From Lysinibacillus contaminans (GTDB lineage Bacteria; Bacillota; Bacilli; Bacillales_A; Planococcaceae), in assembly GCF_001278945.1 (NCBI RefSeq), contig NZ_LGRV01000003.1, forward strand, positions 1,860,001-1,924,000: DNA of 64,000 bases, given 5' to 3'. This document shows, piece after piece, positions 53,914 through 64,000 of the stretch. Below the pieces are notes generated by a model. It saw only the letters and a program-made list of their open reading frames with translations, did not search any database and had not been told where the DNA came from. Within the stretch, counting starts at the first letter, position 1. Each line of letters starts with the position of its first letter. The position numbers and the translations under genes are program-made.

Positions 53914-54240
53914 ATGAACAAAAATAAAGACAACACAGAAGTCATCTTCCTTTCTGACCCATCTGAACGCTTAATGCACCCATTTACTAATAAACAAATC
54001 GTCTTTACAGGAGCTCTTTCTACTATGACACGTTCAGAAGCTGCGAAAAAAGTGCGCGCTTATGGAGGGATTATGCAAGGGGCTGTTACAAAGGAGACCG
54101 ATTTCTTAATTCTTGGGGAGAAACGTCGTGGGATAAGTACTAAGCAGATGAAAGCTGAGCAATTGATCAGTCATGGATTTAACATTCAAATAGTTCCTGA
54201 GGATGATTTTATGTGGCTCATTTCTATCTCAAAAGTATAG
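53914..54240 (+). CDS. BRCT domain protein
   Basis: A 108-residue protein consisting mainly of one BRCT domain: KQIVFTGALSTMTRSEAAKK near residue 28, then GGIMQGAVTKETDFLILGEK and the closing FNIQIVPEDDFMWLI. This is the arrangement found at the end of NAD-dependent DNA ligases and in small stand-alone proteins. It probably binds DNA ends or phosphopeptides. CAAGGAGAAC precedes the ATG. Confidence 0.82.
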   Translation: MNKNKDNTEVIFLSDPSERLMHPFTNKQIVFTGALSTMTRSEAAKKVRAYGGIMQGAVTKETDFLILGEKRRGISTKQMKAEQLISHGFNIQIVPEDDFMWLISISKV

Positions 54241-54797: not shown

Positions 54798-55943
54798 TTA
54801 ATTATAGAGAATTGTTCCTGAATAAATTGCATTAGTTCTTACCCCTGGTTTTATTTCTCCATTAATAGAATAAATAGTTTTATCCATTAGAACTAAGCCT
54901 TCACCACAAGGTGCATCAAATGGAATCTTTCCTACAGATCTCCAAGTATCCTTTTTTGCATTGTATATTAAAATATCTTTATTCCAGTTAAATTCAACAG
55001 GGTCCGTATTAAAGTATTTAGTTCTAAAAGCTAATAACCCTTCCCCTTGTAATGAGCCTAAATTTTTTACTGCATGATCATATATTTCTTTATTAAATCC
55101 ACCTATTACCATCATTTCATCTTTATTTAATTTGACTGAGTTTGCTCCCAATAAAGATATTTCTTTCTTACCTACTTTTACTGAGGAAACTTTTGACCAT
55201 TTATTTTTTTCGATATTATATTTATAGCCATCCGTATAAGCAACAGATCCTCCACCACTAAATACATAAAGATTTCCATCTAATATTTGAGCTACACTTT
55301 GATTTCGAACAGTTTCTCCTGGTATTGGTGCTAATTCACGAGTTTTTGAAGTTTTTAAATCATATTCATATAATTTATTGCTCTCTTTTCCATTTTGCTT
55401 TCCAAGTCCAATATACAATTTCCCATCGCTCTCAGCTGCTACTCCATCACTGATAGTAAATGGTAAATCTCCTATTTTACTTACTTTCAATTTTTTATTT
55501 TGGCCAACAGTTAGTAAAGTAATATCGTCTGCATATTCTTTTTCAGGGCTACCACCAATATAATAAACCCCTTCTTCTGTCGTTACGGAAGATCCATAGC
55601 CTATTTCATGATTAAGATTAGTATGTTCTACCATCGTTAATTTATTTTTATCCTTTTTTAATACATATATATCGGAGTAATGTTTCTTTGCCCCTCCATT
55701 TAAAACTGTTTCATATGGGAAGTTTGCCCCTCCCCCTACGATTACATAATCTTTATAAGATCCTGATAACACTCCTGCAGTCCCAATATTCTTGTCAAAT
55801 CCTTTTTGCGCCTCTAACTCTCCTGCGTGTTCCCATACTATTTTTTCTATCGATTTCTCTACCTCAGAAGCGTTTGCTTTAATCATAGTACCCCCACTTA
55901 AAACGAATATTGATGTAATGGCTGCTATCCAAAATTTTTTCAA
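54798..55943 (-). CDS. nanM: Secreted NanM-like sialic acid mutarotase (cyclically permuted kelch propeller)
   Basis: A 381-residue exported six-bladed propeller. The signal peptide (MKKFWIAAITSIFVLSGGTM, cut near ANA-SE) is followed by the blades: VIVGGGANFPYETVLNGGAK near residue 65, GVYYIGGSPEKEYADDIT near 125, LYVFSGGGSVAYTDGYKY near 225 and EMMVIGGFNKEIYDHA near 275. NanM-type enzymes speed the alpha/beta interconversion of Neu5Ac. Secretion from a Gram-positive places it outside the membrane. It has a TTG start with GAGGAGGAG upstream. It lies about 1 kb downstream of nagA on the same strand, and is probably transcribed separately. Confidence 0.83.
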   Translation of the reverse strand: MKKFWIAAITSIFVLSGGTMIKANASEVEKSIEKIVWEHAGELEAQKGFDKNIGTAGVLSGSYKDYVIVGGGANFPYETVLNGGAKKHYSDIYVLKKDKNKLTMVEHTNLNHEIGYGSSVTTEEGVYYIGGSPEKEYADDITLLTVGQNKKLKVSKIGDLPFTISDGVAAESDGKLYIGLGKQNGKESNKLYEYDLKTSKTRELAPIPGETVRNQSVAQILDGNLYVFSGGGSVAYTDGYKYNIEKNKWSKVSSVKVGKKEISLLGANSVKLNKDEMMVIGGFNKEIYDHAVKNLGSLQGEGLLAFRTKYFNTDPVEFNWNKDILIYNAKKDTWRSVGKIPFDAPCGEGLVLMDKTIYSINGEIKPGVRTNAIYSGTILYN

Positions 55944-56173
55944 AATCTCTCCTCCTCTTATTATGGAAATTTGAACAAATTTCTTATTATAGATAACTAT
56001 AAAATCTCTACCATCACCTCCTTTAGGCGCTTGCTTTTATTACGAAAAAATATCTTAATTCAAAATATTCAGAAAAATAAACCTATTATTTATTATTGAA
56101 GGTTATTAACATGATTATTTGGCTCTTCACCAAAATCTGTTCTTGAAAGCATATTCCGTCACATCAACGTGAG

Positions 56174-56240
56174 GTTGATTTTCGTTCCGGCTGGAGGCTT
56201 TCTGAGGGGCGCCTGATCCCTCACCTCCACTACAATCAAC
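56174..56240. repeat. Internally deleted copy of the ~130-bp repeat
   Basis: The outer arms (TTGATTTTCGTTCCGGCTGG and CCTCCACTACAATCAA) are present but the central GCTCGCTCCAGGGTCTC part is missing. Confidence 0.65.
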
Positions 56241-56404
56241 AAGCAATCTAAACTTAATATGCATTATCATTCTGCCCTAGGTATAAGGAGACGACTCTCA
56301 GTTAGATCAAGGACATGTTTTGGAAACGTCCCAATTATTTGATGAAAAGAAAAATTGCAGAAAAAGAGGTAGAAACGACAACATTTGAGGTGTTTGATCT
56401 GCGG

Positions 56405-56856
56405 TGCAAATTGAAGGTGGAAATTCCTTATAAATTTCACCTTCTAGTAATCTTTGAAAAGCTCGAATCTTACTTTTGCCAGAAACTAATAGGAGAATGT
56501 CCTTACTTCTCAAAATTGCAGAAATCCCTATTGTAATGCATGTGTAGGGGCTGTATTTATTGTAAAGAAGAATCGATAATTAGCTTTTCGAGTAGAATAA
56601 TCTAGTTCCACGATATGATTTTTGAATTTAAAAGAGGTACCTAGTTTATCAAACCTAATATGATCATTTTGGTCAAACCCTAAAACCTTTAAATCGATTC
56701 CCACATTTTGTTCAATTAATAATTCATAACGATTGCATTCGTTATCTAAGTCATCTTAAATTCCATCGGGAAGAAAACATTATTTGGTAAAAATATAAAA
56801 AAGATACTAACTAGTTTCGTTGTCTAGATTCATAGCACATATTCAGCTAAATTAAA
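56405..56856 (-). pseudogene. nagB: nagB pseudogene (glucosamine-6-phosphate deaminase)
   Basis: Pieces of NagB can be read in order in different frames: FNLAEYV and NLDNET, then NRYELLIEQNVGIDLKVLGF and GTSFKFKNHIVELDYSTRKA plus NYRFFF, and finally ITIGISAILRSKDILLLVSG then KSKIRAFQRLLEGEIYKEFP. At least two frameshifts and an in-frame TAA near 56756 break it, and about the first 70 codons, including the phosphate-binding loop, are gone. It lies directly after nagA, where an intact nagB is often found. The rest of the gap 55944-56902 holds only the deleted repeat at 56174 and an unrecognised short frame around 56315-56400. Confidence 0.8.
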
Positions 56857-56902
56857 GGAACGTTTGTATTGCGTAGGGAATGGTCTTCTACTAAATTCAT
56901 CG

Positions 56903-58090
56903 TCAAAATGCACCCTTTTTTTGATAAGATAAAACCCCTCTACAAAATGTCATAAGTACATCGTACTCACTGTTTAAAACAACTAAATCTGCATCTTTCC
57001 CTACTCTAATACTTCCCTTACGATCACTAATATTTAACTGCTTTGCAGGATTCGTTGATGTCATTTTAATGACATCGGCGAGGTTACAGCCATCACAATA
57101 ATTCAGCATATTTTTCATTGCATCATTTAGCTTTAATACACTGCCCGCTAATGCACCATTCTCTAATACAGCCATTCCATCTTTAACACTTACCAATTGA
57201 CCCCCTAAATCATATTCTCCATTTTTCAAACATTTTGCCCTCATTGAATCTGTAATTAAAATGAGTTTTTCGCTATTTTTGTTTCTATATGCTAACTGTA
57301 TCATCTCAGGACATACATGGATTCCATCTACAATTAACTCTGCATATAGTTCTTCAAGAAGCAAAGCAGCACCCACAACCCCAGGCTCTCTATGATGCAA
57401 TCCTTTCATTTGATTAAATAAATGAGTTACTTGCGTTACACCGGCTTCGATACCCTTTTTCACATCAGTGAATTTCGCATCAGAATGTCCTATCGAAATA
57501 ACCACACCATTCTGTTTAAGGTAACGGATTAGTTCCAATCCACCCTTTTGCTCTGGAGCCATCGTGACTAGCTTGATTGATCTTTCAGCTAGTTTTTGCC
57601 ATTTTTCAAACAGTGGAATTTCAGGCGAGATAATATACTCTACTGGTTGTGCTCCAGCCATGCTAGGATTTACAAATGGTCCTTCAAGATGTACACCAAG
57701 GATTTCTGATTGACCTGGTTTTTGATAATTTTTTATAAAGTTAGCTGTATTTTTTAAGGCTTTTGAAATATTTTCATCAGATTGGGTCATTGTGGTTGCT
57801 AAAAAGGCCGTTGTACCTTCCTGCGGCAATGCTTTGACCATCGTTTCCAGTGATGCAATTTCTCCATCCATTACATCAGCGCCAGCCGTTCCATGGATAT
57901 GAATATCAATCATGCCAGGAATCACTACTTGTCCTTGTAAATCGATAACATTGGATTGGTCATCCGCCTTATACTTGCTCATCCATCCTGTTTCTTTAAT
58001 TTCCATTCCTTTAATCTTAATGAATCCATCGGGAATAATCTGATTCTCTTCATAAATTTTTGCATTTATTAAAACAATTGATGTATCCAT
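56903..58090 (-). CDS. nagA: N-acetylglucosamine-6-phosphate deacetylase
   Basis: A 395-residue amidohydrolase that turns GlcNAc-6-phosphate into GlcN-6-phosphate plus acetate. Visible landmarks are the HxH metal pair in GMIDIHIHGTAGADVMDG near residue 63, the metal Glu in GVHLEGPFVNPSMAGA near 135, ISIGHSDA near 200, VTHLFNQMKGLHHREPG near 222 and the catalytic Asp in LITDSMRA near 280. AAGGAGGAAA precedes the ATG. It is the fifth step of the sialic acid pathway here, 82 bases after the RpiR gene. The following nagB is dead, so GlcN-6-phosphate must be deaminated by an enzyme encoded elsewhere. Confidence 0.92.
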   Translation of the reverse strand: MDTSIVLINAKIYEENQIIPDGFIKIKGMEIKETGWMSKYKADDQSNVIDLQGQVVIPGMIDIHIHGTAGADVMDGEIASLETMVKALPQEGTTAFLATTMTQSDENISKALKNTANFIKNYQKPGQSEILGVHLEGPFVNPSMAGAQPVEYIISPEIPLFEKWQKLAERSIKLVTMAPEQKGGLELIRYLKQNGVVISIGHSDAKFTDVKKGIEAGVTQVTHLFNQMKGLHHREPGVVGAALLLEELYAELIVDGIHVCPEMIQLAYRNKNSEKLILITDSMRAKCLKNGEYDLGGQLVSVKDGMAVLENGALAGSVLKLNDAMKNMLNYCDGCNLADVIKMTSTNPAKQLNISDRKGSIRVGKDADLVVLNSEYDVLMTFCRGVLSYQKKGAF

Positions 58091-58172
58091 CTTATTTTCC
58101 TCCTTCTTTATGCAACTGACGTTACCCCATTCTTAACAGGCAACAAGCCCCCCCACCGATGGGAGTTTCGCT

Positions 58173-59027
58173 TTATAACATTTTTTCAATTACAGCTTTA
58201 GCAGTTAGTTCTTTGTTGTGAACTGCTTCCTTATTGGTTCTTTTAAAATATTCAAAGTAGAGCAGATCTAAAAGATAAAGCTGTGCTATCTTTGCAGATA
58301 GACTCCCCCCTTGAAGCGGGCCTTCATTCGCACCGCAAAGCAAGGTAATATCCGAGAAACTTGTCAAAGGAGATTTGGCAAATCTAGTGATTGAAATAAT
58401 TTTTGCTCCTCTTTCTTTTGCTACTTTTGCCACTTCAATAGTATCTTTCGTTGAACCAGAATAGGAGATTAGGATAGCTACATCTTTCTCTGTCATTAAA
58501 GCAGCAGACATTACTTGAAGATGTGAATCTAGGGAACATTCTGTTTTATTGGTAATTCTCATAAACTTATTCTTTGCTTCCATTGCTGTCATTAAGGATG
58601 TACCTACCCCAAAAAAATGAATTCTTTCCGCTTGGACCATACTTTCAACCGCATTGGAAATATTATTTTCTGTGATTAAGTTAAAGGTTTCTGTAAGTGC
58701 ATTTATATTTGAAGATAAAGCTTTAGATGCTAGTTCCTCAATTGTGTCTTGCATTGTAATCATGCTGGAGAGTTGTGGGGTTTCGTTATCAAGGGAAATA
58801 CTATGAGCTAAAACAATTTTAAATTCTTGGTATCCTTTCAGATCCATCGTCTTGCAAAATCTAAAAACACTTGATTCACCCACGTTACACGCATCTGCTA
58901 AATCAGTGATTGACATGTAAATAACGCCTTTTATATTTTCAAGAATATAATCAGCTACCTTTTTTTCAGTGTTAGTAAATGAATTGTACCTTGAATGAAT
59001 AAGTGTAAATATATCCTGGTTTGCCAT
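58173..59027 (-). CDS. RpiR/MurR family transcriptional regulator
   Basis: A 284-residue regulator with an N-terminal RpiR helix-turn-helix (FTNTEKKVADYILENIKGVI then DLADACNVGESSVFRFCKTM) and a C-terminal SIS sugar-phosphate-binding domain (IHFFGVGTSLMTAMEAKNKF, then VAILISYSGSTKDTIEVAKV). Its ligand is probably ManNAc-6-phosphate, GlcNAc-6-phosphate or GlcN-6-phosphate. AAGGAGTTCC precedes the ATG. It is embedded in the sialic acid operon, 23 bases after nanK, which is the usual place for the local repressor. Confidence 0.88.
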   Translation of the reverse strand: MANQDIFTLIHSRYNSFTNTEKKVADYILENIKGVIYMSITDLADACNVGESSVFRFCKTMDLKGYQEFKIVLAHSISLDNETPQLSSMITMQDTIEELASKALSSNINALTETFNLITENNISNAVESMVQAERIHFFGVGTSLMTAMEAKNKFMRITNKTECSLDSHLQVMSAALMTEKDVAILISYSGSTKDTIEVAKVAKERGAKIISITRFAKSPLTSFSDITLLCGANEGPLQGGSLSAKIAQLYLLDLLYFEYFKRTNKEAVHNKELTAKAVIEKML

Positions 59028-59050
59028 TTGGGAACTCCTTCTTATTTATT

Positions 59051-59929
59051 TCATCTTAAATGTAGTGATACTGCACCAAGCACTCCAGCTTTATTTCCTA
59101 GAGAGGCCTTCAAAATTTTCACATCTGAAAAGCTCTCCATCGTTAATTCTAGAACTTTACTTGATATCATATTTACAACACTTTCCTGCTCCATAATTCC
59201 GCCACCTATAATAATAGCCGGGGGGTTAAAAATGTGGATAAGAGAAGTGAGACCTAACGCTACTTCTTCAACCCACTCGTGGAGAACCATTGCTAGACTT
59301 TTGTCCCCCTGGTCTAGTCTTTCAAAAATAACACGACCATTTATAAAATCAGGATGTATTTCCTTTGCCCTTTTTATTAAAGCCGTTGTTGAAGCGTATG
59401 TTTCATAGCAACCTGCCTTACCACAGTTACACTTATTTCCGAAAGGATGAGTAATGATGTGCCCAAATTCCGCTGCAAGGCCATTATGTCCCTTATAAAC
59501 TTTAGAATCTATTACAATAGCACCGCCAATACCTGTACCAAATGTCAAACAAAGAAAATCATCAAACTTCTTTGCACTCCCAAAGTACCTTTCCCCTAAA
59601 GCAGCTGCATTTACATCATTTTCAACTTTAACAGGAACCTTAAATTGATTCTCTAGAATCTCCTTTAATTTCGTACCTGTATAGTTAGGAATATTTTCAT
59701 TGGCATAAATGATCGAACCCTCTATACTATTAACCTGCCCTGCAGTGCTTATGCCAATCGCATCAAAGTTCTGGAATTCGCTAATTATATTAATTAGTTT
59801 TTCAACTAAATATTTTCCGCCTTTTTTACTTTCCGTATCGAATTCTTTAAATACTTCTATCTTGCCATCTTTATCAGAGATTCCAACTTTTATAGATGTT
59901 CCACCAATATCGGCTGCTAATATTTTCAC
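59051..59929 (-). CDS. nanK: ROK family kinase, probable N-acetylmannosamine kinase
   Basis: A 292-residue ROK sugar kinase. The phosphate-binding loop is [13 protein letters not shown] at the start, the catalytic region reads [19 protein letters not shown], and [10 protein letters not shown] follows. The ROK zinc motif is [20 protein letters not shown] near residue 165. It would phosphorylate ManNAc at O6, the step before NanE. I favour the GTG at 59929, which lies 8 bases after AGAGG; an ATG 9 bases further 5' abuts that site. A damaged partial copy lies upstream at 61195-61551, with the same start region. Confidence 0.85.
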
Positions 59930-59977
59930 TTTAGTCATCCTCTACACATAGCCTGAAAATAGCTTTTGTTTTTTTAC

Positions 59978-60009
59978 AGTGGTACCTTTCATTCCTGAAA
60001 GATACCACT
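59978..60009 (-). other. Stem-loop between nanOx and nanK
   Basis: AGTGGTA(C/T)CTTTC pairs with GAAAG(A/G)TACCACT almost perfectly. No T-run follows on the minus strand, so it is more likely an mRNA processing or stability element than a terminator. Confidence 0.4.
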
Positions 60010-60018
60010 CAACAGTTG

Positions 60019-61128
60019 TTACTTATTGATTATCTCTGATAATTCTACTTTTCTATCTTCAGCTAATGACTTAGTACATGCATCTGCTGTCGCTATTGCT
60101 TCAAGCGCCGCTACACCATTTGTCAATTTTTCAAATTCCTCGGTAACTTCCCCACCATTTAGAATATCGTGTAAATAAATCATTTCTTTGTCAATACATG
60201 TTTCAAGCCATAGTGGTGCTCTTGTTCCAGGTTTACCATAAGCAATTGCACCATCCATTCCACGACCAGTATAAATGTCTGTCCGGTCATTATCTTCTTC
60301 CACACTATCATGTATTAAGAATGTACTCTTTTCTTGACCATCTACATGTAATGTGCCTCCACAGTGGAATAAGTCTAATTTAATTGCACCTTTTGTTCCT
60401 TCGATTAACACATAGTGTTCTCCCCAACGGAAAGCTGAGCCATATTCCATTGTTGCATACCGCTTATTATCAAATTCTAAATTTAAAATCAGCATATCAT
60501 CTTCATCGCCCCAATTCTCATGTTCGTGAGCAACATTTCCACCTACCATTGTTACTTTCTTCGGCATTCCACCCATAATAAATTGTATACAATCTAATTC
60601 ATGGATGTGGTGATATAAATGCCCGCCTGATTTATCACGGAATTTCTTCCAAGATACTTCTTTTTGAATTGGTTCCCATCCAGTTCTAGCCGCTTTACAA
60701 TAAAGCACGTCGCCAATCACGCCATCTTCAATCAATTTTTTCGCATGTTGAACCCCATTAAAGAAGTTCATAATGTGTCCTGCCATAAACATTACATTAT
60801 TTTCTTTACAGGCATCTACCATAGCTTTACAATCTTCATAAGATAGAGAAATCGGTTTTTCACAAAACACATGTTTACCGTTTTCAGCAGCTTTTACTAC
60901 TGGTTCAAGATGTAAATAATTTGGTGATGCAACTATAACACAATCCACATCTTCTCTTTGTACTAATTCATCTAGGCTTCCACATACATCTGCGCCTAAC
61001 TCTTCAGCTACCGATTCTGCATTATATGGGTCAAATACTGCTGTAATTTTTGCATCTTCTATTTTGTTCAATGACCTTGCTAAATCTGCTCCAAAATATC
61101 CTGTTCCAACTACTGCATACTTTATCAT
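60019..61128 (-). CDS. Gfo/Idh/MocA oxidoreductase, YjhC/NanOx-like (2,7-anhydro-Neu5Ac oxidoreductase candidate)
   Basis: A 369-residue NAD-dependent oxidoreductase. The N-terminal Rossmann fold reads YAVVGTGYFGADLARSLNK, followed by VIVASPNYLHLEPVVKAAEN and the EKP motif (Glu90-Lys91-Pro92). The C-terminal domain has FMAGHIMNFFNGVQHAKKLI and GGHLYHHIHELDC (residues 168-180, His-rich active site). From memory the whole sequence closely resembles E. coli YjhC, which converts 2,7-anhydro-Neu5Ac to Neu5Ac in a redox-neutral NAD-dependent reaction, as does R. gnavus NanOx. The position between nanE and nanK supports that role. AAGGGTAGTG precedes the ATG. Confidence 0.8.
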   Translation of the reverse strand: MIKYAVVGTGYFGADLARSLNKIEDAKITAVFDPYNAESVAEELGADVCGSLDELVQREDVDCVIVASPNYLHLEPVVKAAENGKHVFCEKPISLSYEDCKAMVDACKENNVMFMAGHIMNFFNGVQHAKKLIEDGVIGDVLYCKAARTGWEPIQKEVSWKKFRDKSGGHLYHHIHELDCIQFIMGGMPKKVTMVGGNVAHEHENWGDEDDMLILNLEFDNKRYATMEYGSAFRWGEHYVLIEGTKGAIKLDLFHCGGTLHVDGQEKSTFLIHDSVEEDNDRTDIYTGRGMDGAIAYGKPGTRAPLWLETCIDKEMIYLHDILNGGEVTEEFEKLTNGVAALEAIATADACTKSLAEDRKVELSEIINK

Positions 61129-61194
61129 CTAGATCACTACCCTTTTATTGTAATAATTCTTCAATTGTAAACGACATGTACGGTGTTACATCTT

Positions 61195-61551
61195 TCATGT
61201 GCAACTCGTTGCGTGACCATGAATCAAATTTTTCATAGAATTTTCTACCGTTTCTTGAGTGATATGGTACCTGTAGTTAGGACACTTGTAAAAGATTGTT
61301 TTATCTACTGAACAGGAACCCCAAATTGATTCTCTTATACTATTAACTGGTCCTACAATGCTTATGCCAATCATATCAAAGCCCTGGAATTCACTTATTA
61401 TCTTAATTAGTTTTTCAACTAAATATTTTCCACCTTTTTTACTTTCTGTATCGAATTCTTTAAATACATCAAACTTCCCAGCTTGGTCGGAGATGCCAGC
61501 TTTTATAGGTGTCCCACCAATATAAGCCGCTAATATTTTCACTTTAGTCAT
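61195..61551 (-). pseudogene. Damaged partial duplicate of nanK
   Basis: The first 75 codons nearly repeat nanK ([20 protein letters not shown] is identical), but the key phosphate loop reads AAYIGGTPIK instead of [10 protein letters not shown], losing the catalytic-loop Asp. After SIVGPVNSIR the sequence is scrambled: short blocks from further along nanK are joined by deletions, and the frame ends with unrelated text. No zinc motif or second domain is present. It lies between nanE and the NanOx-like gene. Confidence 0.85.
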
Positions 61552-61600
61552 CCTCAGCCTATATCCTTTAAATACCTTTTGAAAAAGGATTTATTCTTGA

Positions 61601-62296
61601 TCAATTGACTTGAATTGCATGAATAAATCTTTTTGTAATCTCCATTGGTCTAGTAATCGCCGTACCCACTACCGCTGTATGAACGCCTAAATCGAAAACA
61701 CGCTTCAGTTCCTCCGGAGTCCAAATTCCCCCTTCAGCGATGACAGGAATCGGGAAATCCTTGACTAAGCGTTCCATTAACGCTAAATTCGGTAAATGAT
61801 GATGTTTTGTATATTCCGTATAACCGCTTAATGTTGTACCTAAGCAATCAAACCCTAATGCATACGCCTCTTTTGCTTCTTCGTAGGTCGAGCAGTCCGC
61901 CATAAAAATTTGGTCTTTATATGTTGCTCTTATTTCTGGAAATACTTCGCTTATCGTCTTTCCATCTGGCCGAATTCTTTTCGTTGCATCTAGTGCGATA
62001 ATTTCGACACCTTCTTGATAAAGAAGTTCAATTTCTTTGTTCGTCGGTGTGATAAAAACATCCGAACCTTCATAAACCGCTTTAATAATACCGATGATCG
62101 GTAACTCTACGGTTTTCTTTATTTCCCTAATATCCTCAACGCTATTTGCACGGATTCCCTTCGCCCCTCCACACATTGCTGCATAAGCCATTTTACTCAT
62201 AATAAAAGGGCTATGAAGGGGTTCTTCTGGCAACGCTTGACAGGAAACAATTAGCTGACCCTTAATTTGATTAACTATTTTTTGCTTATTATTCAT
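61601..62296 (-). CDS. nanE: N-acylglucosamine-6-phosphate 2-epimerase
   Basis: A 231-residue TIM-barrel epimerase that converts ManNAc-6-phosphate to GlcNAc-6-phosphate. Landmarks: LIVSCQALPEEPLHSPFIMS at the start, GAKGIRANSVEDI near residue 45, LPIIGIIKAVYEGSDVFITP with the conserved Lys near 73, IIALDATKRIRPDG near 100, MADCSTYEEA, and the catalytic Glu in IPVIAEGGIWTPEEL near 190. GGAGATGTG precedes the ATG. It is 26 bases downstream of the second ABC permease and clearly cotranscribed with it. Confidence 0.93.
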   Translation of the reverse strand: MNNKQKIVNQIKGQLIVSCQALPEEPLHSPFIMSKMAYAAMCGGAKGIRANSVEDIREIKKTVELPIIGIIKAVYEGSDVFITPTNKEIELLYQEGVEIIALDATKRIRPDGKTISEVFPEIRATYKDQIFMADCSTYEEAKEAYALGFDCLGTTLSGYTEYTKHHHLPNLALMERLVKDFPIPVIAEGGIWTPEELKRVFDLGVHTAVVGTAITRPMEITKRFIHAIQVN

Positions 62297-62322
62297 TTAC
62301 ACACATCTCCACGTATAAAATA

Positions 62323-63159
62323 TTACTTATCTGCTCCAAGTGTAATTCCTTTTGTAAAGTACTTCTGGAAGAAGATGAATATAAGTAACATAGGAATTGC
62401 TGCTACAGTTGCACCAGCCATCTTATAAGCAAAGTTTGGATTTAAATCTTGCATTAATGTTGCAATCCCAACCATTAATGTTTTCGAATTTTCACTTTGA
62501 CCGACTACAAGTTGCCATAAATAGTCATTCCATACTTGAACAAAGTTAAGAATAAATAATGCACCAATACCCGGTTTAGCTAGAGGTAACATGATTTTAT
62601 AAAAAATCTTAAATTCACTCGCTCCGTCAATTTTCGCAGCTTCTCTCAATGAGTCTGGAACTGTATCAAAAAATCCTTTCAGTAAAAATACACCAAATGC
62701 TGTTGCTACGTTAGGAAAAATCATGCCACTTAGCGTATTGACCATACCAAAGTCTTGAATAATTCTAAACAGCGGAACAATCATGACCTCTTTCGGAATC
62801 ATTAAACTTGAAATAAAAATTACGAAAATGATATTTTTCCCTTTAAACTGTAATTTTGAAAACGCATAAGCTGCGAGAGAGCTCACAATAATTAACAAAA
62901 AAGTAGACACAATCGCTACAAATAAACTATTATACGCCCATGTAAAAGCAGGTTGATTATTAAAAACATCTACATAGTTACTCAAAGTAAAGGTTGCTGG
63001 AAACCAATCTGGCGGCATTTTCACAACGTCAGAGCTATTTTTAAAAGAACTTGTTACAAGCCAATAAAGAGGGAACAAACTTAAAACAGCAAAAAATAGT
63101 ACGATGCAATTTGCGATAATATCAATTTTTTCTTTTTTCTTACCTCTATTTTTAAACAT
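62323..63159 (-). CDS. Carbohydrate ABC transporter permease (MalG-like)
   Basis: A 278-residue inner-membrane permease with six helices. It begins with the cytoplasmic KNRGKKKEKIDI and first helix IVLFFAVLSLFPLYWLVTSS, then FPATFTLSNYVDVFNNQPAF. The EAA loop that meets the ATPase reads DSLREAAKIDGASEFKIFYK then IMLPLAKPGIGALF near residue 190. The ATG at 63159 has AGAGGTGATT; earlier in-frame starts overlap that site. It pairs with the permease immediately upstream, 12 bases away. Context with nan genes points to a sialic acid substrate, free or anhydro. Confidence 0.9.
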   Translation of the reverse strand: MFKNRGKKKEKIDIIANCIVLFFAVLSLFPLYWLVTSSFKNSSDVVKMPPDWFPATFTLSNYVDVFNNQPAFTWAYNSLFVAIVSTFLLIIVSSLAAYAFSKLQFKGKNIIFVIFISSLMIPKEVMIVPLFRIIQDFGMVNTLSGMIFPNVATAFGVFLLKGFFDTVPDSLREAAKIDGASEFKIFYKIMLPLAKPGIGALFILNFVQVWNDYLWQLVVGQSENSKTLMVGIATLMQDLNPNFAYKMAGATVAAIPMLLIFIFFQKYFTKGITLGADK

Positions 63160-63171
63160 AACCAATCACCT

Positions 63172-64000
63172 CTAATTGTTCTTAAACATAGCTCTTAGCT
63201 GTGGAATCGATAGAGCCAATGTTAGTAAGAACATAATGACACCTACAGCTGATGCTATACCTAGCTGATTGTACTTGAAGGCATTATTATATAAATAGTA
63301 CATAAGCGTTGTAGATGCGTTGTTTGGTCCACCGCCCGTTAATAGTTGGATAACAACGAATATCTTCAAAACTGCAATAATATTCATAATGATAATGTAA
63401 ATAGTTGTTGGCTTAACCATTGGAATAATGATTTTAAAGACTATTTTCAATTTACTAGCACCATCTACTTCGGCTGCTTCTAACGTTTCCTTTGGCACCC
63501 CTATCATCGAAGCGATGTATAAGATAATGGCTTGACCGACATTCGTTGCAAATGTTACGAAAATAATAACTGGTAAAACCAACCTCGTATCACCCAAAAA
63601 ATTAACTGAAGCTATCTCTAACTCCCTTGCCATGAAAGGAATTAAACCGTTCGCTGGATTTAGTAGGAAGCTCCAAATCATACTCATGACTACCATGGAA
63701 ACCATGACAGGAATATAATATGCACCCCTAATAAAAGACACATATTTAGCATTTTTATCGAAAATTGTAGCGGAAACAAAAAGTGCAAAACCAACTGTTA
63801 ATGCTACGATGAAGACAACAAAAATAACTGTATTAATAGTAGATTGTACAAAAACTGGATCACTAAATAATCGTTTATAGTTTTCTAACCCGACAAATAC
63901 TTCATCCTGATAGTTTATTTTAAATAAACTTAATCTGACCCCTTCCATGATTGGGTACACTAAAAAGATTAAGAAAAATAAAATTTGAGGTGCGATAAAC
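63172..64000 (-). CDS. Carbohydrate ABC transporter permease (MalF-like), cut by the window edge
   Basis: At least 276 residues; the gene runs off the right edge with its start outside. The visible part begins FIAPQILFFLIFLVYPIMEG, typical of the first helix of sugar permeases, then LSLFKINYQDEVFVGLENYK. The EAA loop is PKETLEAAEVDGASKLKIVF then KIIIPMVKP near the C-terminal third. It forms the importer with the following permease. The substrate-binding protein, and probably nanA or a sialidase, should lie beyond 64000; the ATPase may be a shared MsmK-type protein encoded elsewhere. Confidence 0.88.
   Translation of the reverse strand, partial: FIAPQILFFLIFLVYPIMEGVRLSLFKINYQDEVFVGLENYKRLFSDPVFVQSTINTVIFVVFIVALTVGFALFVSATIFDKNAKYVSFIRGAYYIPVMVSMVVMSMIWSFLLNPANGLIPFMARELEIASVNFLGDTRLVLPVIIFVTFATNVGQAIILYIASMIGVPKETLEAAEVDGASKLKIVFKIIIPMVKPTTIYIIIMNIIAVLKIFVVIQLLTGGGPNNASTTLMYYLYNNAFKYNQLGIASAVGVIMFLLTLALSIPQLRAMFKNN

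Follow-up and report, generated by a model that had tools for sequence, protein, structure and literature searches.

Apparent insertion of nanOx into an older sialic acid operon of Lysinibacillus, with the tail of a sialidase gene left in front of it

The closest described counterparts of the locus reported here are nan clusters that include the oxidoreductase NanOx. That of Ruminococcus gnavus holds a SAT2 importer, NanH, NanOx, NanE, NanA and NanK, as set out in PMC12323340. According to PMC7535918, the pneumococcal locus has a SAT2 importer beside NanB and NanOx, with SAT3 being required for the transport of N-acetylneuraminic acid (Neu5Ac), and NanOx is known across Firmicutes, Proteobacteria and Actinobacteria together with ATP-binding cassette (ABC), symporter, major facilitator superfamily (MFS) and GPH importers. 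SAT3 is among the symbols for NanOx-bearing organisms in the Figure 8 legend of the same paper; it is thus known that SAT3 and NanOx can occur in one genome, and a linked pair may already be in print. Here we describe a nanOx gene in a stretch of Lysinibacillus contaminans DNA of 64,000 nucleotides (nt), hereafter the window, which covers 1860001-1924000 of contig C1 in genome G000 (4.1 Mb, 9 contigs, completeness 86.26%) and was followed to the right into loci L005 and L006.

Our reading, to which we give a probability of about 0.7, is that a sialic acid operon was extended to anhydro-sialic acids by insertion of a nanOx gene. As part of this explanation, nanOx would have come from a sialidase-nanOx pair whose sialidase has since been deleted except for its last ~31 codons. 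The gene identities, the NanOx active site, the importer class, the insertion and the sialidase tail are all read from the DNA itself. Every gene of the run 54798-63999 lies on the minus strand, and all the genes named there by the original prediction, which was made from the letters of the window (permeases, nanE, ROK, RpiR, nagA and NanOx), are present in that one run. Its core is as follows.

58173-59027, minus strand: RpiR/MurR-family regulator (HTH_6 and SIS domains)
59051-59938, minus strand: ROK kinase, probably for N-acetylmannosamine (top PDB hit the 'N-acetylmannosamine kinase' 5nck, E 1e-60)
60019-61128, minus strand: nanOx (nanY/yjhC), NAD-dependent anhydro-sialic acid oxidoreductase/hydratase, 369 amino acids, intact (from PDB matches, residues and tree)
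61145-61240, minus strand: scar of an anhydro-sialidase gene of the NanB/NanC type, its last ~31 codons with the stop
61311-61551, minus strand: 5' fragment of a second ROK kinase gene (from its DNA match to the intact ROK gene)
61601-62296, minus strand: nanE, N-acetylmannosamine-6-phosphate 2-epimerase (310 bits, cut-off 189)
62323-63165, minus strand: ABC permease 2, CUT1-type, SAT3-related
63172-64000 plus 47 nt beyond the window (L005 11172-12047), minus strand: ABC permease 1, CUT1-type, SAT3-related; the 47 nt are the first of the gene
L005 12124-13521, right of the window, minus strand: substrate-binding protein
L005 14188-15117, right of the window, minus strand: nanA, beginning 2.2 kb right of the window edge

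Like the R. gnavus cluster, the locus combines in a single run an ABC importer, NanA, NanE, a ROK kinase and a NanOx that is 65% identical and has the same catalytic residues; unlike it, the importer is SAT3-related, the sialidase is represented only by its tail and genes for NagA, a mutarotase and an esterase are added, and in the tree the window NanOx does not form a sister pair with its R. gnavus counterpart. The NanC-type locus of genus g45 and of an Enterococcus casseliflavus plasmid (rpiR-nanE-nanA-SSS symporter-YhcH-sialidase-nanOx-ROK) has the nearest NanOx (75-78%) and shares the order sialidase-nanOx-ROK, and its sialidase tails, together with that of Agrilactobacillus, are nearest to the window's. 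There, however, most members seen have an entire sialidase, and the importer is an SSS symporter, whereas the window has the tail alone and an ABC importer. We take g45 for Streptococcus, from the whole-length match of the L146 sialidase to NanC and from loci with the published pneumococcal gene order, NanC and NanB being pneumococcal enzymes according to the papers cited. The S. pneumoniae-type supercluster (SAT2, NanB and NanOx beside nanE, SAT3 and nanA), which by gene order is our locus L149, likewise has both NanOx and a SAT3-type importer, but its NanOx adjoins SAT2 and the sialidase, whereas the window NanOx lies within the SAT3-like operon itself. The E. coli NanXY system (YjhBC) has an enzyme of the same family (59% identity), and E. 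coli too is given in PMC7535918 as being without an anhydro-sialidase; unlike the window, it has an MFS importer and a two-gene operon. Free-living Actinobacteria carry nanOx, in which anhydro-sialidase and nanOx are rarely together, and two actinobacterial nanOx clusters have ST7/SAT2-type importers (both from PMC8754123); the window would resemble these in having NanOx outside host-bound bacteria but belongs to another phylum. A literature search, outside of which the transporter survey PMC8461474 lay, found no publication joining Lysinibacillus, sialic acid and anhydro; judged by the titles and abstract openings listed, it gave none on sialic acid use by Lysinibacillus and no apparent prior report of sialidase tails before nanOx.

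The assignment of 60019-61128 to YjhC/NanOx, made in the original prediction, is borne out. The protein matches solved structures end-to-end (6z3b at E 1e-163; 6o15, YjhC, at E 6e-147), the next solved family being inositol dehydrogenase at E 9e-25, and it is 65% identical to R. gnavus NanOx (RgNanOx) over 366 residues and 59% to E. coli YjhC; the threshold for membership given in PMC7535918 is at least 49% identity to RgNanOx. The same paper states that exchange of RgNanOx Lys93, Lys163, His175, His176 or His178 inactivates the enzyme, and all five are present here (K91, H173, H174, H176 and the Lys163 column). The His175/His176 pair is missing in all four ordinary paralogues checked (five rows of the alignment, one gene being entered twice), to which identity is 26-29%. 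In the tree, a NanOx group of 27 rows (support 99/98) is separate from other Gfo/Idh/MocA proteins, and the window protein stays apart from the inositol and other sugar dehydrogenases. The branches of the paralogues are very long, and one of their rows is a duplicate; rows L002 and L003 of the tree hold the same gene, from overlapping loci. The neighbours of the window protein (100/99) are the NanOx proteins of Agrilactobacillus, of three g45 loci (G696, G710, G743) and of G604; the next branch out (93/86) holds those of the congeners G012, G027 and G029, with those of congeners G020 and G026 elsewhere. By sequence, tree and active-site residues, then, 60019-61128 encodes a true NanOx/NanY. 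Relative to its counterpart in G696, the gene has 211 changed codons, 128 of them synonymous, a proportion suggestive of constraint. Two other members of the sample are of note for this family. G524 (L076 9614-10720) has a NanOx-like protein, 43% identical and with all five catalytic residues, that adjoins RpiR and ROK genes in a locus with no nanA or nanE match in 20 kb, and may act on another anhydro-sugar; in G753 (L119, L120; genus g45) NanOx itself is split into two open frames.

Between the ROK fragment and nanOx, a frame reads FYEKFDSWSRNELHMKDVTPYMSFTIEELLQ-stop, the C-terminus of an anhydro-sialidase, with its stop 16 nt before the nanOx start. All seven sialidases searched against the window, L005 and L006 match it at 8e-11 to 3e-6, and their next-best place in these sequences scores no better than 0.15. 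The significance of the tail rests on this window-wide search, a control with random pieces being flawed (25 of 208 pieces matched, which we put down to pieces of sialidase-holding loci). Residue matches are 24/30 with the Agrilactobacillus sialidase, 21/30 with the NanC-type sialidases of L146 and L147, and 13-17/30 with the other ten. The tail contains the equivalent of Trp698 of the R. gnavus sialidase RgNanH (codon 61217-61219), a residue that in whole sialidases stands 21 residues after the catalytic Tyr by a count made by eye; the roles of these residues are described in PMC10017367. At the very place of the tail, congeners G012 and G027 have a whole sialidase of 693 amino acids, 19 nt before NanOx, and that of G027 matches S. 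pneumoniae NanB at 5e-249. Alternatively, G000 may never have received more than the tail and nanOx. The tail may be kept for signals that nanOx expression needs.

The distribution of NanOx was taken from sampled whole genomes (genus, family, class sample and g45), the genome studied here being counted each time in the first three. NanOx is found in 6/32 genus, 9/261 family and 8/398 class-sample genomes (E <= 1e-80 or 1e-90), in 26/147 g45 genomes (E <= 1e-60) and in 8 of 72,556 plasmid records (E <= 1e-60). Because it is so patchy among genomes, the distribution fits horizontal transfer. Among the plasmid records, the E. casseliflavus plasmid NZ_CP046125.1 (L155) bears rpiR-nanE-nanA-symporter-YhcH-sialidase-nanOx-ROK, with insertion sequence transposase genes (IS110, IS3) on both sides, and such a sialidase-nanOx-ROK cassette is a possible vehicle.

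The operon itself appears to predate the NanOx within it. Binding proteins of the window type (E <= 1e-60) occur in 11/261 family genomes, among them the six NanOx carriers of the genus, and we fetched eight relatives for comparison (G012, G020, G026, G027, G029, G161, G059, G061). The operon is colinear in all eight (nanA-SBP-perm-perm-nanE-ROK-RpiR, with SBP the substrate-binding protein and perm a permease), with an esterase in three (G161, G059, G061); downstream, all five congeners have both nagA and the mutarotase gene, G161 has only the latter, and G059 and G061 have neither at that place. In none of the eight does the operon contain NanOx, the NanOx of the five congeners being at another place, in a cassette with a different importer. 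In G000, NanOx lies exactly between nanE and ROK, preceded by the ROK 5' fragment, whose 241 nt are 84% identical to the intact ROK gene. Since the eight relatives run from nanE to ROK with no NanOx, and since the ROK fragment and sialidase tail look like a scar, nanOx is, on this comparison, an insertion. Fragment and tail alike had been overlooked in the original prediction.

We also considered whether the intact ROK gene had arrived with nanOx from the donor, and this was unsupported: it is native-like along its whole length (against the five congeners and G161, 80-86% towards the 5' end and 77-81% towards the 3' end) and of the native kind, with only 36% identity to g45 ROK, the fragment being the more divergent copy. 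The GC content of nanOx (36.8%, window 37.1%) gives no hint of foreign origin. G161 (genus g16) is closest for 10 of 11 shared proteins, mostly by a few percent, the exceptions to this small margin being PucR (78% vs 56-59%) and the esterase, which is absent from the congeners; a derivation of the whole operon from g16 is only hinted at.

The importer was thought to be like that of R. gnavus, and this part of the prediction is not supported. The pneumococcal-type locus L149 holds both importers; the label SAT2 follows from comparing its gene order with PMC7535918. The permease tree has three clades, namely SAT2 (8 rows, 100/100), SAT3 (6 rows, 98/96) and the group of the window (11 rows, 98/99), which stands beside SAT3 as a clade of its own and is linked to nanE, nanA and the kinase; the tree is unrooted and carries a long-branch warning, so that nearness to SAT3 rests on identity. 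By the same comparison, the label SAT3 is taken to belong to the importer adjoining nanE and nanA. The window permeases are 38-40% identical to SAT3 and 27-29% to SAT2, with SAT3 and SAT2 23-28% identical to each other. The binding protein, too, leans towards SAT3: it is 28-29% identical to that of SAT3, and its best solved match, 9ry2 (6.6e-32), is within the set matched by the L149 SAT3 binding protein at 1e-265 or better, a set that is not among the matches of the SAT2 binding protein of G027 at 1e-10. A SAT2-type binding protein (E <= 1e-20) occurs in 5/32 genus genomes, which are exactly the NanOx carriers other than G000. By sequence identity, the window importer is thus nearer to the Neu5Ac importer SAT3 than to SAT2, and a SAT2-type importer is rejected by permease identity, the separate clade and the lack of a SAT2-type binding protein match in the genome at E 1e-20. 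NanOx and this importer type have been paired more than once, since two other family genomes, G173 and G215, have NanOx within such an operon too, though in a different place (SAT2 was searched there within the fetched loci).

To see the scar in context, 41 NanOx loci were compared (27 from g45, 9 from the family, 3 from other class members and one each from Agrilactobacillus and E. coli). In the 1500 nt before nanOx, a long sialidase match stands in 15 of them, remnants alone in 4 and neither in 22; in four of these 22 (G020, G026, G222, G437) a sialidase lies in another part of the locus. The four with remnants are G000, G029, G710 and G639. In G029 (L018 9885-10152), sialidase codons 1-45 are joined in frame to 664-693 before an intact nanOx, a natural in-frame deletion of codons ~46-663, and this genome has no BNR_2 match. 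G710 (L145 9353-9540) retains the last 39 sialidase codons and perhaps 11 near the start, and G639 (L150 9636-9810) about 45-54 codons with a stop within; both are of genus g45, and the search in them covered the loci. Because relatives of each have a whole sialidase at the same place (relatives of the same genus for G029, G710 and G639, of other genera for G000), we infer from identities and tree four independent losses, pointing to a repeated loss of the releasing enzyme among NanOx loci. A related case is Ligilactobacillus salivarius UCC118 (L156 10650-11565, pMP118), in which the sialidase lies downstream of NanOx, is annotated in three pieces and covers 37% of the query; strain SNK-6 (L157) has the same sialidase as one gene, and NanOx and an MFS importer are kept in both strains. 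As no tail stands before nanOx there, the case shows that sialidase loss need not leave one. We offer only as a tentative generalization, less likely than not, that users of anhydro-sialic acids repeatedly turn scavenger by deleting the adjoining sialidase, of which 30 to ~54 codons stay behind ahead of an intact nanOx, and that here the SAT3-like importer also serves anhydro-sialic acids.

With regard to substrate, 2,7-anhydro-Neu5Ac had been proposed, but it need not be the sole one. E. coli YjhC acts on 2,7-anhydro-Neu5Ac and on 2-deoxy-2,3-didehydro-Neu5Ac (Neu5Ac2en), according to PMC7315737, and PMC10955332 describes NanC as making Neu5Ac2en and symporters of the SiaX kind as taking up Neu5Ac and Neu5Ac2en. 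The sialidase of L146 aligns with solved NanC from end to end at E 0 and 1476 bits (NanB 1e-222), the L147 NanOx, among the nearest, lies beside a NanC-type sialidase, and the L007 sialidase is nearer to NanC (1e-276) than to NanB (1e-234). Because the nearest NanOx loci and sialidase tails are NanC-type, Neu5Ac2en is a serious candidate, as likely a substrate as 2,7-anhydro-Neu5Ac.

The system might then work as follows. Foreign enzymes would release Neu5Ac, 2,7-anhydro-Neu5Ac or Neu5Ac2en outside the cell; the mutarotase and the SGNH esterase may tidy the released sugar; the SAT3-like importer, presumably with the MsmX-type ATPase, would take it up, and NanOx would convert the anhydro forms to Neu5Ac with NAD+ being recycled. 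NanA, the ROK kinase, NanE, NagA and a distant NagB would lead on to fructose-6-phosphate, with the operon controlled by the RpiR regulator. The sugar had been expected from the bacterium's own enzymes or those of neighbours, and the latter are now favoured: a search of G000 with BNR_2 found no sialidase elsewhere in this 86% complete genome, and the tail is all that was seen of an anhydro-sialidase gene, although one could have been missed. Since only the tail was found, the bacterium is probably a scavenger of sialic sugars released by other organisms.

Several observations weigh against our reading. SAT3 is a known Neu5Ac importer; none of the four g45 genomes (of 147) that have the window's importer type in nan operons (~50% identity) has a NanOx match; the search of G000 for a further importer covered the SAT2 type; the decayed nagB and the ROK fragment are parts of a cluster that is eroding; and the absence of BNR_2 matches comes from a single family model in an 86% complete genome, so that an own sialidase could have been missed. 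These points lead to the strongest rival, which we regard as unlikely though worth keeping in mind, namely that the importer takes up Neu5Ac only, with NanOx an idle or decaying passenger or with anhydro forms entering via another, unseen transporter. The link of SAT3 to Neu5Ac uptake (PMC7535918), the g45 operons in genomes with no NanOx match and the decay elsewhere in the cluster favour it, but the g45 non-overlap says little, as less than one overlap is expected by chance, and NanOx is intact with all five residues, bears the synonymous excess relative to G696 and recurs inside this operon type in G173 and G215.

Alternatively, this could be a full R. gnavus-like system with SAT2-type import of 2,7-anhydro-Neu5Ac, its sialidase merely further away. 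The run of NanOx, NanA, nanE, kinase and ABC importer fits that idea, and the best solved match of NanA is 6rab (E 5e-94, next match 2e-48), which we take to be an R. gnavus protein. The low permease identity to the SAT2 group, the lack of a SAT2-type binding protein match at E 1e-20 and a sialidase seen only as a tail, with no BNR_2 match, largely refute it, and we consider it very improbable. That 60019-61128 is instead an ordinary, inositol-like sugar dehydrogenase of other function is scarcely conceivable. None of the 11 NCBIfam families listed for the protein is a NanOx model, and the best name is inositol 2-dehydrogenase, at 135 bits against a cut-off of 355, but E-values, residues, tree and identities together rule this out. 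Insertion of nanOx into a SAT3-like operon thus remains our preferred account.

The other genes of the run and its surroundings are the following.

53914-54240, plus strand: small BRCT-domain-like gene (named by eye), left copy of a flanking pair
54798-55943, minus strand: cyclically permuted mutarotase family protein, NanM-like (TIGR03548, 391 bits, cut-off 243)
about 56400-56782, minus strand: decayed nagB remnant containing stops, between nagA and the mutarotase gene
56903-58090, minus strand: nagA, N-acetylglucosamine-6-phosphate deacetylase (TIGR00221, 409 bits, cut-off 226)
L005 13547-14191, right of the window, minus strand: SGNH esterase
L005 15372-16304, right of the window, plus strand: PucR-type regulator
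L005 16388-17575, right of the window, plus strand: MsmX/UgpC-type ATPase
L006 3067-3393, right of the window, plus strand: second copy of the BRCT-like gene

Extending the sequence to the right of 64000, as had been suggested, revealed the binding protein and nanA and no sialidase among the open frames read. Both nanA and nagB had been reported as not visible; nanA merely lies beyond the edge, and nagB is in the window as the decayed remnant, with an intact copy on contig C3 (184612-185310). nanA, the ROK kinase and nanE together make up the canonical nan pathway, nanE scoring above its curated NCBIfam cut-off and nanA and the kinase below theirs. The N-terminus of the mutarotase-family protein resembles, by eye, a signal peptide. 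The two BRCT-like genes bracket the operon in the same orientation with 88% DNA identity, which looks like a mark of integration or rearrangement; the five congeners have a single close copy beside a relative of the same 117-amino-acid gene, and their nan operon is at another locus. G000, although it comprises just 9 contigs, is 86% complete (the 31 congeners reach 96-100%) and has decayed genes in the operon, which could reflect either assembly faults or real gene decay in the lineage.

The locus would be a physical record of an enzyme of release lost and an enzyme of consumption kept and rewired to another importer class. If the importer takes up anhydro-sialic acid, importer class no longer predicts who can use anhydro-sialic acid. 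The genus offers a natural comparison between G012 and G027, with a whole sialidase before nanOx, and G000 and G029, with NanOx and no BNR_2 match, and this contrast therefore makes cross-feeding on anhydro-sialic acid directly testable.

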